Assembly: GCA_000151295.1 (NCBI GenBank)
Contig: GG745331.1
Location: 1,161,516-1,225,515, forward strand
Direction: 5' to 3'
Source of the DNA: Allomyces macrogynus ATCC 38327
Taxonomy: Eukaryota > Blastocladiomycota > Blastocladiomycetes > Blastocladiales > Blastocladiaceae
Length of the DNA: 64,000 bases
Below are positions 634-18,065 of this stretch, piece after piece. How positions within the stretch are numbered: the first letter of the stretch is position 1; each line of letters begins with the position of its first letter. The translations under genes and the position numbers were made by a program. The notes beneath the pieces were generated by a model. The model was given only the letters and a program-made list of their open reading frames with translations. It did not search any database and had not been told where the DNA came from.

Positions 634-3599
634 ATGGTATCTCGATTTATTCCTCATGCCGCGGACATTGCCCGAACTGGACGCTGATCCGACCATTTTT
701 GTTCGGCTTTAGGCGGACCGCAAGCGCCCACGGTCACCTAGCCCGCACGATGATGACCGCATGTCGGTCCCGACGTCGCCCGGCGTGCGCACCTCGCTTC
801 CGCCGAGCAGCCCCGTGCCGTTTGCCGAGGACGACCTGATTGCGCGCGACATCGATGATCTCGGCGGCGACGAGGACGAGGGCGACGGAATTGACCTGTT
901 TGGGTCCGACATGGAGCGGTACGTTTGATGTTGCTTTTGCGGGCAACCGTTTGTGAAGGTTTTTGTGCACGATGCTCATTACGGCCCCAAATTGCTTTCT
1001 TGCGTTCTAGCGATTACCGAGAACACGACCGCTTGGACCGCTACGACGCCGTCGACCTGGACGACGAAGAGTACGCCCAAATGGACGCGGGCCAGCGCGC
1101 CGAGGTCGAGCGCATGATGCGGCGCCGCGACGCGCTCGAGGGCCGGCTGCCGATGCCGTTCATGGACGATCTCGGTATGTACGCAGCGGCGATCCCCTCC
1201 ACTCTCGCTTGGCGACCTGCCTTGCCTTAGAGGGTGCTTGCGCTCACCACCATCCACTTTTTCTCTGCACAGAGGACGACCAAGAAATGGAAATGCAGCC
1301 GCGCCGCCGCCGCCGCGCCTACCACGAGGACGCTGACATGGACGCTGACCTGGCCGGCGACGGCGACTTGCTGCTCGAGAGCATCCACGATCTCAAGGGC
1401 CAGTCGATTGCCGAGTGGCTGGCCATGGACCGCCCGCGCAACACGGTGCGCAAGGAGCTGATGCAATTCCTGCAGTCCTACACGGACAAGCACGGTCAGT
1501 CGATTTACGGCGAGAAAATCAAGATCATGGGCCAGCTGAACCGCGAGTCGCTCGAAGTCTCGTTTCAGCACCTTGAGGACGCGAATGCGATTCTCGCCTA
1601 CCTGCTCTCCAACTCGCCCGTCGAAATGCTCGCCATATTTGACGAAGTCGCGCGCGACGTGATCAAGTCCACCTATCCGGACTACGAAAAGATTCGCCAA
1701 GAGGTGCACGTGCGCATCACCGACCTGCCCGTCACGCTCTCGATCCGCGACCTGCGCGAGGTGCACCTCAACTCACTCGTGCGCATTTCGGGCGTCGTGA
1801 CACGCCGTACGGGTGTGTTCCCGCAGCTCAAGTACGTCAAGTACGACTGCGTCAAGTGCGGCACCGTGATTGGCCCGATTCACCAGGACTCGACGACCGA
1901 GGTGCGCGTGAAGGCGTGCCCAAACTGCATGTCCAAGGGCCCGTTTGTGCTCAACTCGGAGCAGACCGTCTACCGCAACTTCCAAAAGCTCACGCTGCAG
2001 GAAACGCCCGGCACCGTGCCCGCCGGCCGCCTCCCGCGGCACCGCGAGGTGATTCTGCTCTGGGACTTGATCGACGCCGCTCGCCCGGGCGAGGAGATTG
2101 AAGTGGTCGGGATCTACCGGCACAACTTTGACATGTCGCTCAACACCAAGAACGGGTTCCCGGTGTTTTCGACCATCATCGAGGCCAACCACATCAGCAA
2201 GCGGGAGGACGAATTTGCGTCGCTGCGGCTCACGCAGGACGACATTGCGCAGATCAAGGAGCTTGCCAAGGACCCCAACATTGGCCGCCGGCTCATCAAG
2301 TCCATTGCGCCGTCGATCTACGGACACGACGACATCAAGACGGCGATTGCCCTGGCGCTGTTTGGCGGCGTGCCGAAAAACGTCAACAACAAGCACCGCA
2401 TCCGCGGCGACATTAACGTGTTGCTCCTCGGCGACCCGGGTACGGCCAAGTCGCAGTTTCTCAAGTACGTGGAAAAGACGGGCCACCGCGCCGTCTTCAC
2501 GACGGGCCAGGGCGCCTCGGCGGTCGGTCTCACGGCGTCGGTGCGCAAGGACCCAATGTCCAAGGAGTGGACGCTCGAGGGCGGCGCCCTCGTCCTGGCT
2601 GACCGCGGCGTGTGCCTCATCGACGAGTTTGACAAGATGAACGACGCGGACCGCACCTCGATCCACGAGGCCATGGAGCAGCAGAGCATTTCCATTTCCA
2701 AGGCCGGCATCGTCACGTCGCTGCACGCGCGGTGCTCGATCATTGCCGCGGCCAACCCGATTCGCGGGCGCTACAACCAGCAAGTCAATTTCTCGCAAAA
2801 CGTGGACCTGACCGAACCGATCCTGTCGCGTTTTGACGTGCTCTGTGTCGTCAAGGACCGCTCCGACCCAGAACTCGACGAAATGCTCGCCGAGTTTGTG
2901 ATTGGGTCGCACATGCGGTCGCACCCGGCCGCGACCGCTGACGGCGTGGCGCACTTGCACGCCACGACCGATGCGACGCTGATCCCACAAGACTTGCTGA
3001 AAAAGTATATCATGTACGCGCGCGACAAGGTCACGCCTAAGCTGCACCAAATGGACGAGGACAAGGTGTCGCGTTTGTACGGCGAGTTGCGCCGCGAGTC
3101 GTTGCAGACTGGGTCGATCCCTATCACCGTGCGGCACTTGGAGTCGATGATTCGCATGGCCGAGGCGCACGCGCGCATGCACTTGCGCGACCACGTGCGC
3201 GCTGACGATATCGACATGGCCATTTCCGTCATGATCAACTCGTTCGTTTCCACGCAAAAGTACACGGTCATGCGCACGCTGCGCAAGTCGTTTGCCAAGT
3301 ATATTCGGTACCACCGCGACTCGGACGAGCTGCTCCTGTTCTGCCTCAACGAACTCGTGCGCGAGGCCGTGCGCATGTACCAGCTCGCGCACCGGTCTGG
3401 GCTCGCGGCGGCCGGCACGGGCGGAGGCGCAATGCCGGCACAGATCACGGTCAACATGGAGGAGTTTGTCTCGCGCGCGCGCGAACTGAACGTGCACGAC
3501 GTGTCGCCCTTCCTCGAGTCGTCGCTGTTCCGTGCCAATGGGTTCACCGTGCGTGACGAGGGCGCAAGGGGACCGCGTGTTGTCAAGTCGTTTAGTTGA
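634..3599 (+). CDS. MCM2: MCM2, subunit of the MCM2-7 replicative helicase
   Basis: MCM2 is one of six AAA+ subunits of the MCM2-7 helicase that licenses origins and unwinds DNA in the nucleus. I infer four exons: 634-636, 713-918, 1011-1174 and 1273-3599, giving 899 aa, the usual MCM2 length. The acidic N-terminus contains the MCM2-typical GSDMERDYRE segment. A C2C2 zinc motif (CVKCG...ACPNC) follows, then Walker A GDPGTAKSQ, Walker B CLIDEFDKM, the arginine finger in SRFD, and a C-terminal winged-helix region ending VVKSFS. The start codon forms its own exon: ATG at 634-636 is followed directly by a GTATCT donor, and the acceptor TTTAG at 708-712 restores M-A-D-R-K-R in frame. The family assignment is secure. 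The one-codon first exon is an inference, and a start inside exon 2 (MSVPTS at about 761) is the alternative. Confidence 0.95.
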
Positions 3600-3904: not shown

Positions 3905-6649
3905 TCAAACCCCAAGGCCGCGGCGCGAGTTGACGCGCATCAATGCGGGCATCGTCTCGTTAACATGCTTGCTCGCCACATCCGCGGCCTTGCTCGAACC
4001 CGGCGCGCACTCTTCACCCTCAGTAGCACTCTCCAGGGCCCCATCCTCACGGCGCGCGCCCACGACTCTCTCTACGACCTGGTCCACAAACAGCAGGCAC
4101 TCGCGAGCAGCCGTCCGAGGGTCCAGTGCCGTCGCCGACACCCCCGACACGACGCGCGCGTGGTTATGGTCGACACCCTGCGCCCAAGTGCCCGGCGTCG
4201 CCGCAACCAGGTACACCGAGAGCGAATTCTGCCCGTTCCCCGGGCGCTCGCCAATCACATGGAACACGACCCCAACCTCTTCGTCAGCACCGTCGCGTGC
4301 GGCACGCGGGCTGAACAGGTCGCAGCCGACAACGTACCCGGCACGGACGCGCCCATTGCGCACGATAATCAGCGGGAACGGCAGATCGATCTGCCGCGCA
4401 GCGCATTCGGCGTGCAGCGCCTCGACGAGGACGTCAACATGGCCCGGCGCGTGGATGCTGTCGGCGTTCAATCCGTCGCTGATGACGATCGCCGCACGAA
4501 CGTGACGGCCCGGCAAGGGCACGGACTGAGCACGCACTTGCGCGAGCAAGTCGAGCGACGCGCGCGTGAGCCGCTCCCCCGTCACGGGCCGCCGCAAGTA
4601 CTCGTCACGTCCTTGCGCCTCTGATACGAGCTCCACGGCATCCTGCGCGGGCTGGTCACCGATAACTGGAGCAAGCCGCACGCGCAGTGTGGCCGGGTGA
4701 ATCTCCTGCCGCACGGCGCGCTTGGCGCCGTCGTATATCTCCTGCAGCCGTTGGCGCACGGTTGGCGGCGCGCGGAACGCGCCGTCGTGGCCGTACCCGA
4801 GATCGAGCCCACGGCGCTGCATTTTCTCGAGAATTGCGCGTCCCTCGGCGATAATCTCGGCGTGCGGGCGCGTATCGCCCTTGCGGTGCCGGTACGCGGC
4901 ATACACGGCGGCCGTGTCCCCAGCACGGCCGGTCATGCTGCCGTCGTAGTTCATGACGCCGAGATCGTGCACGAAAAAGTCGCGCATTTCGTCCGTGCCG
5001 TGAACACCGTGCGCGAGCCGAAGTCGCGGGTGGTCACGGAACCCCGTTGTGATGTAGCTGAGCATTGGGTCGTTGCGGCCGGCCACGGCCATGTAGAAAG
5101 CCGGCCCCGCGGCGAGAACCGCGTCTTGGATGAACTCGATGTCATCGAGGGTGATGTCCATGTGGTAGGTCGCGCAAATGTCGAGGCCGAACGTCAGGCT
5201 AGATGGAAGCAGTTGAGCATCAGCGAGCCGCACGAGATTGCTCAAAGCAGGCGAAACGTACCCGTGCAGCTTACCCATACAAAGATCCTCGAGACACGCG
5301 CGCAGCAGCTGGTCGCGCGACTTGTGCACTTCCGGCCCAATAAACCCAACCACGGAATTGACAATGGTCCAGTTGCGCGACTCGTTGCGCAGCGCGCGCG
5401 CGAGACCGTGTGCGCGGGCTTCACACGTCACCATATCGATCCCGTTGCTCGCACCATTCGTCACGGCACTGCCCTGGCCCGTCTCATAGTAGAGCGCGGG
5501 TACTTTGGTCGCGGCCGCGCGCAGCGACGCGACCGAAATACCAAACACGCGGTTCACGGCCAACGTGCCGCCAATCGACTGGAACGCGACGCCAATCAGG
5601 TCGTGGCCCGGGGTCGACTCGATGAGCTGGGCCGCTGTGTGCGCAGCGGGCGATGCTGATCGTTCCGTCGCCGCAGGTGGTGGGGAAGAAGCGTTGCTCG
5701 AGCTCGAGGACGGAGCCGGGCTGCGCGATCGGCGCAGTGCGTCGTCACGGTGCTGTCCGGCATGCACGGCCATTTGCTCGTCGAGGTGGGCCAGGACGCA
5801 GTGCTTGGTCTTGTCGCCGAGCTGGAAGGTCTGGATCACATCGAGGAGCACCGCCTCGAGCGTCGCGACGTTGGGCAGGTCGGATGCGACAATGTTGATG
5901 CCAAAAATGGCGTCGCCGCATCCGTAACTGGGTGTCGAGTCGATCGGTCAGCTATAAACGGAGCTATCACCCCAGAGCCTCGTGTACGGAAGAAGACCGC
6001 ACCTGAGCCCCTCGAGCACGCTCATGAGCACCTCCTCCGGGTCGTCGGTCGCGCTGTTGGGCTGGATGCGGCTCGCAAACCGGCCGTGCGTGCCGAGCGT
6101 ACTGCCCGGCGCGGGCGGGTTCCAAATTTTGCTTGCGACGCAAATCAAGTCGTCGTTGGACATGAGTTTGACGACACCTGCAATCACTTCGCTGCGCAGG
6201 CCCGGTAAAATCGCACGGATCGCATCCTCACTCGCATCAACAAGAAACTCGCGCAGTTCGCCGAGGGTCCACCCGGCGATCCGGGCCGCGACCTGCAGGT
6301 CGAGGCCAAATTCTTCGGCATAGTCGGCCAGCTCGCGGTCGTTGGAGAATCGGTCGGGCCGAATGTCGCCGACGCGCAGCAGCGACAGCTGGAGCCGCGC
6401 GGCGTCGCGCTCGGCGGGTGAGTGCGAGGCGATCCCGAGCGCGTCGTCCCCTTCCTTGAACTCGCTGGCGAGCCCGAATAGTCGGCGCAGGTCGGTTGGC
6501 GCCTCGGCGAGAATCAGACGAACCGGGTTGGGCGGGTCGGTGCCGTCGTTGGCGGGGCCGCGTCGGTCACGCTCTGGCGCGGGGTGCTGGTTGCTGTTGC
6601 CATCGTGCACGTCGGCGTCGGTTGCCGTGGCCGTGTGTGTGCGCGACAT
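3905..6649 (-). CDS. fused EutB-EutC ethanolamine ammonia-lyase (adenosylcobalamin-dependent)
   Basis: The protein resembles both subunits of ethanolamine ammonia-lyase, which converts ethanolamine to acetaldehyde and ammonia using adenosylcobalamin. Two exons (6649-6003 and 5927-3905) give 889 aa; the join restores the EutB motif GLSYGCGDAIFGIN. EutB-like landmarks in order are an N-terminal region ending FASRIQPNSATDDPEEV, FQSIGG, the substrate-binding YETGQGSA at about residue 363, NSVVGFIGPE, and GVMNYDGSMTGRAGD. After about residue 600 comes the EutC-like part, with EYLRRPVTGERL, VVISDGLNADSI and VIGERPGNGQ. In bacteria these are two separate polypeptides. A Ser/Pro/Ala-rich insert of about 30 residues (near 5650-5740) interrupts the EutB part and could be an unrecognised in-frame intron. 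I see no signal peptide, and no other eut or cobalamin gene is nearby. GC content and the intron look like the neighbouring nuclear genes, so bacterial contamination is unlikely. Confidence 0.9.
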
Positions 6650-7182
6650 GGTGCTGGTCCGCCGGCTGGCTGTCGCGGTAGCGAGCAGACGGGAGTCGTG
6701 GGACGCCAGAGGGGCGGGAATGGCGACGGTGCGCGAGCGCCACGCGCTGGAGCCAAGTCTCACCGCACGACAGCGGAGGTGCGCGCGGGTGGGACGGGAT
6801 CGATCGGCGCAGTCCTCTCTGCAGTCGAAGGTGAGACGCGTGTCCGGCGGCGCGAGACACTCTGCGCGGGCGCGACCGTGGCACAGCAGCAAGTCACGCG
6901 AGTCACGCGCTGCGCCCACCGCAGCCTTCCGCGGGTCAGGCCAACCCAGCCGCGCCGCCACACCCACCAGCTGCACCGCCTGCCACGATGACTGGCGGCG
7001 GACCCGTCGCCTCTCCGCCTTCGACGACGTCTCTCCTCGAGCTCCAAGCTGCAACGCCGTTGACCGACCTGACCGACTGGCTGCACTGCACTGCACCACC
7101 CTGCACTGCACCCGGCCTGTTGCTCGCCGCCGCCCCCGTCCCCGTCCCCGCCCAGCACCTCGTTTCTTCATACACTACCACC
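6650..7182. promoter_or_regulatory. shared upstream region of the Eut fusion (-) and EB1 (+)
   Basis: The two genes are transcribed divergently, with 533 bases between start codons. The region is GC-rich and no TATA box is obvious. An open frame runs on from the Eut gene upstream of its chosen ATG, but it lacks family similarity, so I treat it as UTR/promoter. Confidence 0.5.
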
Positions 7183-8290
7183 ATGACCGGCGAGTCGCGT
7201 CAGGACCTGCTCAACTGGGTCAACAGCCTGCTTGGCCTCAACATTGTCAAGATCGAGGAAATGGGCAAGGGCTTCGCGCTGTGCCAAGTATGTCCAACTC
7301 TCGGCTCTGCCCGCGCCAATGCGGTCCTTCAGAGCCCTCACCGCGATTCGCCATCCGTCTTTCGCTAGATTTTCGACTCGATTTTCCTCGACGTGCCGCT
7401 CAAGAAGGTCAAGTTCAACGCCAGGCACGAGGTATGATTTGATGCTCTCGTGGTGCACCAAAGCTGCTGCTCAGTGCTGACGTTGGCCCTCCCTTATCGC
7501 GACAAACAGTTCGAGTACATTCAGAACTTCAAGGTGCTCCAGTCCGTCTTTGACAAGCACAAGATCCCGAACGACATCCCCGTCGAGCGTCTCGTCAAGC
7601 TCAAGTTCCAGGACAACATCGAGTTCCTGCAGGTACGGCTTGCCGCCGCCCTCGTTTCCCTCTTCTCACTCCACTCACCAAAGTCTCGTTTTCTTGCCTA
7701 GTTCGTCAAGAAGTTCTGGGACACGCACTTCCCCGGCGGCTACTACGATGCTGCTGGCCGTCGCTCCGGTGCCGGTGCGACCGTCGCGACTGGCGCACCC
7801 AAGCCGACGCGCTCCCCCGTCTCGTCGGCTGGTCGCGTGAGCTCGCCGCTCAACGCGGGCCGCCCGCGTTCGTCGCTCGGGTCCAACAACGGCGCCTCCG
7901 CCGCTGCTCTGCAGCAGGCGCAGATGCAGGTCGCAGAGCTGACGGCGCAGGTCGAGGAGGCGCAGGCGGCGCTCGACGCCATGGGCAAGGAGCGCGACTT
8001 CTACTTTGGGTGCGTACAAACTGTTTGCTCTGACTCGTGCAAACTTTTGAGCGACGCGTTTCTTGCGTTGGCCATGTCGCACCTGTTCACCTGACTCACA
8101 CTCTTGGCCTCGCGTTTCTAGCAAGCTGCGTCAGGTCGAGGTGGCGCTGCAGGCGCTCCAGGAGCAGGGCCAGGAGTTTGCCGCTGTCAAGGACATTCTC
8201 GGCGTCCTCTACGCGCAGGACGCGGAGCCCGTGCCGATGCACGACGACATGGCCTACCACGACGGTGCCGCCATGGAGGAGACGTTCTAA
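7183..8290 (+). CDS. EB1-family microtubule plus-end-tracking protein
   Basis: EB1/MAPRE (yeast Bim1, fission yeast Mal3) binds growing microtubule plus ends and recruits other tip proteins. Five exons (7183-7287, 7369-7431, 7510-7632, 7702-8009, 8122-8290) give 255 aa, a normal length for the family. The N-terminal calponin-homology domain covers about residues 1-120, with LLNWVNSLLGLNIVKIEEMG, FDSIFLDVPLKKVKF and FVKKFWDTHFPGGYYDA. A Ser/Pro/Arg/Gly-rich linker of about 50 residues follows, then a coiled coil and the EB-homology region near the C-terminus (ERDFYFGKLRQVEVALQ, VKDILGVLY). The protein ends DGAAMEETF rather than with the EEY/F motif of animal EB1. All four introns are short with standard GT-AG ends, and the reading frame closes exactly. 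Confidence 0.95.
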
Positions 8291-15403: not shown

Positions 15404-16339
15404 CTGCTGCTGCTGGACCTGCTGCGCCTGCGACGCGGCCGACATCATGCCCATGCCCATACTCTGCATCTGCCGCGCCTGGTTCGACGCGACAGCAGCC
15501 GCGGCAGCACCCATGCGCTGTGCGGTTGTGGGCCGCGGGTTGAAGAAGGCCTGGTTCGGGTTGCTGTTGGTGGCGGCCGTGCTGGCGGCGCTGTTCTGGA
15601 ACGCGCGGTTCTTGAACCCGAACCCGCGCGACTCGGATGACTGCGCGTACTCGATGCGCACGTAGCGGTTGTTGAGCGTGAGCCCTTGCAGTTCGCGGTG
15701 CGCGCGCTTGGCGTCCTCGACGTCGCGGAAGTGCACGTAGACCATTCTATGACCATTCAGGGACAAACACGAGTGAGACACTGGAGGAGTCGTGATGCGC
15801 GGCGTGATGGCACGGCCAAACAAACCCCATCAACGTACCCGCGATCCCCCAAAATATCGCACTGCTCAATCGCGCCATAGCTGCCAAACACATTCGAAAT
15901 TTCCTCCTCGTTCACGTCCCAGACATTTGCCAAGAACAGGGTCCGCACCGCTGGTTCACCCGTCTCGTCGCGCGACACGGCAATCGTGACGGGTTTCCCG
16001 TTGAGCATAAACTGGCCCGAGGCCTCGCACGCGCGCTGGACGGCGTCCGGGAACGTGAACTTGATGTAGGCGAACCCCATCATCTCACCCGTGTTCTTGT
16101 CGCGCGGCATGCGCACGTCGTCAATCTTGCCGAAACGACGGAAACAGCGCCGCAGCACAAACTCGTCAATGCCCGGTGGCAGGTCCGAGACATAGACGTG
16201 CTTAGCAAACGCGCGGACGGGATTATTGTTGCCCGCGGCGGGGGTCGTCGTGGCCGTGGCCGGGGTCGACGTCAACGCCGACGCCGACGCGTTCGCAGCG
16301 CCGGTGAGCGGCGGCGACCCTGCGGGGGTCCCGTCGGCA

Positions 16340-16376
<37 letters not shown>

Positions 16377-18065
16377 CCTCACCTTCGCCCGCATCCGCCA
16401 CCGCGGCCGGTTCTGCCGCAGCCGTCTCAATCGGCTTCTGCAGCGGGAACCCGCCCTGTTGTGCCGGCGCTGGAGACGAGTCGCGTTTGCCCGTCGACCC
16501 GGCACGCGACGCGCGGTCGCCATCACCAGCGCGATCGGACGGCGTCGCGTCGACGGCCATGGGCGACCCGGGCACGGGACGCGGCGAGACGGGCGTTGGC
16601 GCCGGCGAGAACGCGCGCGTTGCGGCGGGGGCCGCGGGCAAAGTCAGGGTCGGGACCGCGGGAGTCGCGGGCGCAGGCGATGCCGAGCCCTTGTTTGCGG
16701 GAGTCGCGGGCTTGCCCTCGATCTGGCGCAACTTTTTAATCAGGTGCGCAATGTGCTCGGGGCTGCCGGACGGCGCGGGACTGTCGGTGAGGTCAACGGC
16801 AGCAGGGGCCGGGGCCGGAGTCGCGGCAGCAGGTGCAACAGCTGGTGCGGACAGCAGGCGGCAGCGGGTGCCTGAGTCTTGGCGNNNNNNNNNNNNNNNN
16901 NNNNNNNNNNNNNNNNNNNNNNNNNNNNNNNNNNNNNNNNNNNNNNNNNNNNNNNNNNNNNNNNNNNNNNNNNNNNNNNNNNNNNNNNNNNNNNNNNNNN
17001 NNNNNNNNNNNNNNNNNNNNNNNNNNNNNNNNNNNNNNNNNNNNNNNNNNNNNNNNNNNNNNNNNNNNNNNNNNNNNNNNNNNNNNNNNNNNNNNNNNNN
17101 NNNNNNNNNNNNNNNNNNNNNNNNNNNNNNNNNNNNNNNNNNNNNNNNNNNNNNNNNNNNNNNNNNNNNNNNNNNNNNNNNNNNNNNNNNNNNNNNNNNN
17201 NNNNNNNNNNNNNNNNNNNNNNNNNNNNNNNNNNNNNNNNNNNNNNNNNNNNNNNNNNNNNNNNNNNNNNNNNNNNNNNNNNNNNNNNNNNNNNNNNNNN
17301 NNNNNNNNNNNNNNNNNNNNNNNNNNNNNNNNNNNNNNNNNNNNNNNNNNNNNNNNNNNNNNNNNNNNNNNNNNNNNNNNNNNNNNNNNNNNNNNNNNNN
17401 NNNNNNNNNNNNNNNNNNNNNNNNNNNNNNNNNNNNNNNNNNNNNNNNNNNNNNNNNNNNNNNNNNNNNNNNNNNNNNNNNNNNNNNNNNNNNNNNNNNN
17501 NNNNNNNNNNNNNNNNNNNNNNNNNNNNNNNNNNNNNNNNNNNNNNNNNNNNNNNNNNNNNNNNNNNNNNNNNNNTTCCCGTGAGCAATGCGAGCAGCGG
17601 CACAGCGAGCGCCGTGTTGGACGCGAGCTTGGTCGTCAAATTGGCAAACGCCATTTGCGCGTCGAGCATCGGCTGCGCGTCCGGGTTGGTCGCGGGGGCC
17701 AAGAGCGCAATCAGCTGCCGCAGTTGCGGGATCGCGCGTGTCGACAGAAGACGCGCACGGAACAGGTCCTCGGACGTGGACGAGGCCGTGGTTGTCGCCG
17801 CGGGCGCCCGAGCGGGTGCGGCGGCCGGGGCCGACGGGACGGGAGTGGGGACGCGAGCAGCAGGCCTGGCGATCGGGGACGGGGTGGGCCTGGCGGCCGA
17901 GGCGGCGGCAGGGTCGCGCTCGCGGGAATGATCGAAGGGATCAGCGTCGGCATCGGCGTCGGCGTCGGGCATCGGCACGTCCTCGTCCTTGCCCTGATTC
18001 TTGGTGTGGTTGGGGTGCGCGTGCATCGGGGCGGCCTCGGCGTTGGGCGTCGTGCTCGTTGGCAT
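14843..18065 (-). CDS. two-RRM RNA-binding protein with a Gln/Met-rich C-terminus (contains assembly gap)
   Basis: A predicted RNA-binding protein. I place the start at 18065 (MPTSTTPN). The N-terminal exon (18065 to the gap) begins with an acidic, Pro/Ala-rich stretch containing (DA)n, then a helical region ending ALAVPLLALLTG. After the N gap the frame resumes with VDLTDS, which resembles a SUMO-interaction motif, and EHIAHLIKKLRQIEG. RRM1 has KHVYVSDLPPG and GEMMGFAYIKF; RRM2 has RTLFLANVW and MVYVHFRDVEDAKRA, and is split by an intron at 15747-15838. The last exon carries poly-glutamine (encoded at about 15341-15424) and Met/Gly-rich sequence, ending ALASQHHLLPSQ. RRM2 looks a little like Mei2-type or poly(A)-binding proteins, but I cannot name an orthologue. 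Joining across the gap is an inference. Confidence 0.75.
15341..15424. repeat. CTG/CAG trinucleotide tract encoding poly-Gln
   Basis: The tract consists of runs of CTG on the plus strand, with GAC and TTG interruptions. Read as CAG on the minus strand, it encodes glutamine runs in the C-terminal region of the RRM protein. Confidence 0.85.
16340..16374. repeat. hexanucleotide GTCGCC repeat encoding an Ala-Thr run
   Basis: Perfect tandem GTCGCC units lie inside the RRM gene. On the minus strand they encode alternating Ala and Thr in the disordered linker upstream of RRM1. Confidence 0.8.
16885..17575. other. assembly gap (Ns)
   Basis: There are 691 undetermined bases inside the RRM-protein gene. 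The gap length may be an estimate, so the reading frame cannot be carried across it. Flanking sequence is GC-rich and low in complexity, which may explain the gap. Confidence 0.99.

Follow-up and report, generated by a model that had tools for sequence, protein, structure and literature searches.

We describe a gene of the zoosporic fungus Allomyces macrogynus ATCC 38327, AMAG_03000, which lies in a 64,000-nucleotide stretch of DNA (hereafter the window; C72:1161516-1225515, GenBank contig GG745331.1) and very probably encodes a single-chain, adenosylcobalamin (AdoCbl)-dependent ethanolamine ammonia-lyase (EC 4.3.1.7). The gene runs on the minus strand from 6649 to 3905 in three exons and joins EutB to EutC in one product with a conserved substrate site and the expected predicted fold, in a genome that holds further B12 genes. 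From these features we infer the cofactor use, activity, location, pathway and physiological role of the lyase.

Gene structure, domains and substrate site

The original prediction, made from the DNA letters, of EutB and EutC fused in one intron-containing eukaryotic gene is borne out by the frame, the motifs and both Pfam domains; its 889-residue product with one intron has to be corrected to 868 residues and two introns, the in-frame intron at 5261-5199 having been missed. This second intron resembles coding sequence because its 63 nt keep the frame open. Its excision yields a protein identical letter for letter to the deposited AMAG_03000 (P0001), to which the 889-residue reading is 98% identical, with intron 2 making up the whole difference, and the 21 residues it would encode are absent from all 22 aligned relatives. 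Intron 1 was placed correctly from the start; an alternative donor at 5987 also preserves the frame, and we favour the donor at 6002 because the resulting junction, GLSYGCGD, is common to fungal relatives in the alignment. Read in this way, the gene has two GT-AG introns.

Both domains of the 868-residue product score above the curated Pfam cut-offs (EutB, PF06751, 396 bits with a cut-off of 25 bits; EutC, PF05985, 96.2 bits with a cut-off of 25.8 bits), which answers the two-domain profile check proposed at the outset, and the 889-residue reading gives 373.2 and 96.1 bits. The fusion does not hinge on splicing, as the last part of EutB and the complete EutC already share a single open frame at 3905-5851; two misjoined genes are ruled out by this unspliced frame and by fused open reading frames in 30 named bacterial loci. 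The EutB barrel and the EutC fold are both present in the predicted model (a structure prediction, not a solved structure), in which the predicted local distance difference test score (pLDDT) falls below 50 at residues 1-45 and 288-305. All seven residues on what we take to be the substrate-binding list of ethanolamine ammonia-lyase, R160, Q162 and N193 among them, are the same as in E. coli. A Ser/Pro-rich insert within EutB is long in Allomyces, shorter in other Blastocladiomycota and absent from the aligned bacterial proteins.

B12 machinery in the Allomyces genome

The other B12 enzymes that the original prediction had proposed to look for are present, as expected of a B12-using organism: methylmalonyl-CoA mutase on contigs C55 and C63, MetH on C65 and C36, and PduO-type adenosyltransferase (Cob_adeno_trans) matches on four contigs. 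A class II ribonucleotide reductase (RNR) is probable from exons on C43 and C45 that singly score below the curated cut-off, a level at which several control genomes also match. An isolated fragment at C72:427390-427554 matches the MetH B12 domain with 74 bits. In the MMACHC search no control genome gave a match, and we do not claim absence. The claim that no other Eut, microcompartment or cobalamin gene lies nearby holds: the adenosyltransferase, mutase and MetH matches all fall outside the window, and six-frame searches of the 54 Mb, part of which reads N, gave no match to EutA or to bacterial microcompartment (BMC) proteins (controls matched in 5 and 2 of 14 genomes, respectively), so that the combination of EutA and BMC shell proteins that marks a classical eut metabolosome was not found.

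The adenosyltransferases are of two kinds, judged by eye, each a closely similar pair. Those on C67 and C51 (L013, L016) carry an Arg/Ser-rich N-terminus leading to RYFSTP or RHFSTP that resembles a mitochondrial presequence, and those on C70 and C30 (L116, L117) start with MKVYTKTGDRG; the open frame as read holds no in-frame Met ahead of it. No mitochondrial-type presequence is seen in the lyase either. With one kind bearing a presequence and the other kind and the lyase lacking one, we infer a two-compartment arrangement, where the mitochondrial adenosyltransferase would serve the mutase and the cytosolic one the lyase and perhaps RNR.

Relatives and origin of the fused lyase

Each protein search scored about 8000 candidates. 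Among the best 120 of 1341 matches to the full-length protein, a search with length limits that favour fused proteins, the top 20 comprise seven proteins from Blastocladiomycota (three Allomyces, two Blastocladiella, Catenaria and Sorochytrium, the latter two lineage-checked), one from Gonapodya (Monoblepharomycota) and 12 metagenome proteins; a Gonapodya-based search added a partial protein from a second Gonapodya. Some of the fungal members are automatically labelled ethanolamine ammonia-lyase in UniRef and in some NCBI records. A search for shorter proteins returned, as the only eukaryote-named or eukaryote-sourced entries among the 120 matches listed, a second A. macrogynus protein (P0209) and a EukProt protein (P0214, tig00020801_g13923.t1) that we take from its identifier style to be from Cyanophora, and some of its metagenome proteins look eukaryotic by their Asn/Asp-rich inserts. 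That the bacterial enzyme is made of separate chains, as originally stated, holds for 47 of the best 80 loci listed in named prokaryote genomes; 30 have a fused open reading frame and 3 are cut by a contig end. The fused loci come from Myxococcota, Planctomycetota, Bacteroidota, Thermodesulfobacteriota, Desulfuromonadales (Geobacteraceae among the fused-protein hosts), Acidobacteria, Gemmatimonadetes, Phyllobacterium and a Pseudomonadales bin.

In all EutB and EutC trees (75 taxa and 491 columns, and 69 taxa and 189 columns, respectively, with earlier FastTree runs of 130 and 116 taxa), the fused proteins split from the unfused ones, and both parts of the fungal protein group with the fused class. 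The Blastocladiomycota, including Sorochytrium, form one clade (support 99.9/100 for EutB and 86.6/98 for EutC), with which P0214 groups in the EutB tree. The named bacterial fused proteins also form one group (100/100 and 88.9/94), with the exception of the pair L049 and L054. The fungal sequences lie outside that group, together with metagenome proteins, in a weakly supported assemblage (87.6/55 beside Gonapodya for EutB, 13.8/46 for the group for EutC) whose internal arrangement is not the same in the two trees and where rerooting can move labels by one node. Most simply, the EutB and EutC parts would have travelled together, already fused. The ancient transfer originally suggested is possible, as is old vertical descent; it is not demonstrated, the nearest other sequences being metagenome proteins.

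Two side observations concern these trees. The metagenome lyases that the EutB tree places near the fungal proteins are P0010-P0014, P0016-P0018, P0021 and P0211. The pair L049 and L054, from a Desulfuromonadales and a Bacteroidetes bin, consists of very divergent fused lyases that sit on a long branch in the EutB and the EutC tree alike.

Many bacterial fused lyases seem to be exported. By a home-made rule (not SignalP) that scores Sec, twin-arginine (Tat) or lipoprotein signals, export signals are found in 139 of 168 usable fused database proteins (37 of 205 were dropped for short N-termini), in 19 of the 29 usable among 30 named fused loci, and in 4 of 5 usable among the 10 of the metagenome group near the fungi. 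For comparison, such signals are found in 1 of 24 usable EutB (48 in all) from unfused loci, in none of 3 usable unfused proteins (of 64) and in none of 15 usable eukaryote-like ones (of 19). A first pass over the first 45 residues, after which the rule was widened, gave 91 Sec-like, 57 Tat-like and 18 lipobox starts among 178 proteins (overlapping categories), with none in 41 unfused and none in 9 fungal proteins. Tat-, Sec- or lipoprotein-like starts occur in L024, L025, P0124, P0131 and others; an exported AdoCbl enzyme is unexpected.

Clustering of 364 crude gene calls around the 30 bacterial fused loci left only three families recurring in at least three loci: the lyase itself (in 26 loci, and in a further 4 where an opposite-strand frame was picked) and two others, found in 5 and 4 loci, which look by eye like a short-chain reductase and an ABC ATPase. 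A conserved operon around the bacterial fused genes is rejected on this crude clustering, as no eut-like neighbours recur.

Weighing of the assignment

Several observations tell against a cytosolic ethanolamine ammonia-lyase in Allomyces. The EutC part is weakly similar by sequence to solved EutC (E about 0.0002), and no reactivase was found in the searches above. The cytosolic location is deduced solely from the missing presequence, and the C70 and C30 adenosyltransferases may have an upstream exon. Next to ligand N193, 9 of the 10 fungal or fungal-like proteins have Ile and only that of Gonapodya has Pro, the residue found there in all 48 EutB from unfused loci, so that kinetics or substrate range could differ. 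Finally, P0209 (EutB only, from a contig of 1,033,996 bp in the deposited assembly, 61% identical over the piece searched) is degenerate, having lost the stretch with the equivalents of R160, Q162 and N193 and all of EutC, and the trait may therefore be dispensable.

The substitution beside N193 also speaks for the strongest alternative, in which the fused chain would be an AdoCbl-using lyase or dehydratase acting on another amino alcohol or a related compound in place of ethanolamine. The separate deep branch of the fused class, the seeming export signals of many bacterial members, which are unexpected for the classical pathway, and the non-recurrence of eut-like neighbours all fit such an enzyme, which we nonetheless consider unlikely. 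Still less probable is a gene that is intact by chance, silent or inactive, and heading for loss like its degenerate sister copy: in AMAG_03000 the frame is complete, both introns are GT-AG and none of the listed ligands is missing, and Allomyces, Blastocladiella, Catenaria and Sorochytrium all retain the family, with identities of 55-88%. Most members of the family are bacterial, yet bacterial contamination or a chimeric assembly is a negligible prospect for a gene with two GT-AG introns that sits 1.16 Mb into its contig beside an MCM2 gene, has GC content near that of its surroundings, and has relatives with 83-85% identity in two other Allomyces records.

The gene is thus a resident nuclear gene, as had been proposed. 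The 54.0-Mb genome is in 75 contigs, and the adjoining MCM2 gene marks this one as nuclear and eukaryotic; GC content is 0.65 at 4001-6000 and 0.66 at 6001-8000 versus 0.60 on either side, and values of 0.64-0.65 recur in eight other 2-kb steps of the window. EutB matches in the genome are confined to AMAG_03000 (one place in a DNA search), which was also the only match to P0209. Neither P0209 nor P0001 matched two MCM2-like stretches by tblastn, one of which reads N over 6375 of 9901 bases; since part of the MCM2-homologous sequence reads N, we do not call AMAG_03000 single-copy. A viral origin was rejected as well: viral contigs matched the pattern at 28 places, 2 of which encode a EutB relative, and with identities of 34-35% these are no closer than bacteria.

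Table 1. Coordinates of the EutB-EutC gene, its domains and the neighbouring gene in the window
Feature	Position	Strand	Details
Exon 1	6003..6649	-	Start codon 6649-6647; low-confidence N-terminal tail and start of EutB domain
Intron 1	5928..6002	-	75 nt, GTGCGG...ACCCAG
Exon 2	5262..5927	-	Middle of EutB
Intron 2	5199..5261	-	63 nt, in frame, GTACGT...TCTAG
Exon 3	3905..5198	-	End of EutB, linker, all of EutC; stop codon 3907-3905
EutB domain	4931..6496, introns included	-	About residues 52-527; Pfam PF06751; hand-computed from exon lengths
Ser/Pro-rich insert within EutB	5621..5761	-	About residues 272-318 of 868; alignment; hand-computed
EutC domain	4067..4750	-	Residues 588-815; Pfam PF05985, 96.2 bits; hand-computed from exon lengths
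MCM2-type replication licensing factor	1209..3599	+	Neighbour, not part of the system; Pfam MCM, MCM2_N, WH_MCM2

Elsewhere in the window, EB1- and MRE11-like neighbours, judged by eye, gave no Pfam match as single exons and were not used, and GC content drops to 0.46 at 16001-18000, with about 0.62-0.64 on both sides.

Proposed function and significance

We propose that ethanolamine, from phosphatidylethanolamine turnover or decaying matter, would be bound in the barrel of the EutB part, with the covalently attached EutC part closing the cobalamin site. Imported B12 would be adenosylated by the fungus's own PduO-type adenosyltransferase, the presequence-free one acting in the cytosol. Cleavage would give acetaldehyde and ammonia, the latter a nitrogen supply, and an aldehyde dehydrogenase would turn acetaldehyde into acetate. 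Neither a microcompartment nor EutA would be needed, which is plausible because a Salmonella strain lacking the eut operon can use ethanolamine by means of the A. baumannii lyase, with metabolosome, EutA and EutE all absent (PMC9426561).

The view that fungi generally lack B12 is outdated for early lineages: in a survey of eight B12-related families (Orlowska 2021), 50 of 59 non-Dikarya fungi have B12-related enzymes and Blastocladiomycota the whole studied set, and ethanolamine has zero occurrences in its main text (PMC8085122). The eukaryotic B12-dependent enzymes identified in Zhang 2009 are MetH, methylmalonyl-CoA mutase and class II RNR only (PMC2667541), and ethanolamine ammonia-lyase was sought in Tilletia and none found (PMC9172201). 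Blastocladiomycota have lost CHO1, with which one phosphatidylethanolamine route begins (PMC10629195), so ethanolamine handling may be special there. We found no published report of a fungal ethanolamine ammonia-lyase in a search outside which most subscription journals and bioRxiv lay.

If active, AMAG_03000 would add a fourth kind of B12-dependent enzyme in eukaryotes and open to zoosporic fungi a conversion of membrane lipid into ammonia and acetate that relies on bacterial B12. It would be, to our knowledge, the first eukaryotic ethanolamine ammonia-lyase. As a model radical enzyme in one chain and with no metabolosome, it would lend itself to feeding and silencing experiments. A broader proposal, which we regard as evenly balanced between right and wrong, is that this fourth enzyme is a cytosolic single-chain lyase of Blastocladiomycota and Monoblepharomycota (perhaps also a glaucophyte), served by its own cytosolic adenosyltransferase beside the mitochondrial one, and derived from a mostly exported, seemingly undescribed class of fused bacterial proteins, with fusion preceding entry into eukaryotes and the compartment changing in the course of that passage.

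Comparison with known systems

The Allomyces protein has both domains, the fold and all listed ligands in common with E. coli EutBC (PDB 3abo, 7xrm) and Listeria EutB (2qez), and differs from them in its one chain instead of two, its N-terminal tail and Ser/Pro insert, and a genome in which no EutA or shell proteins were found. A. baumannii EutBC, likened here by description and not by sequence, is bacterial and has two separate subunits; like our proposal for Allomyces, it works with no metabolosome or EutA, in a bacterium that possesses a PduO-type adenosyltransferase (PMC9426561). The fused bacterial EutB-EutC proteins (about 690-800 residues) are 39-42% identical in nine aligned, and most carry export signals by our crude rule whereas the fungal ones carry none; it is these proteins that have the domain order and the single chain of Allomyces.
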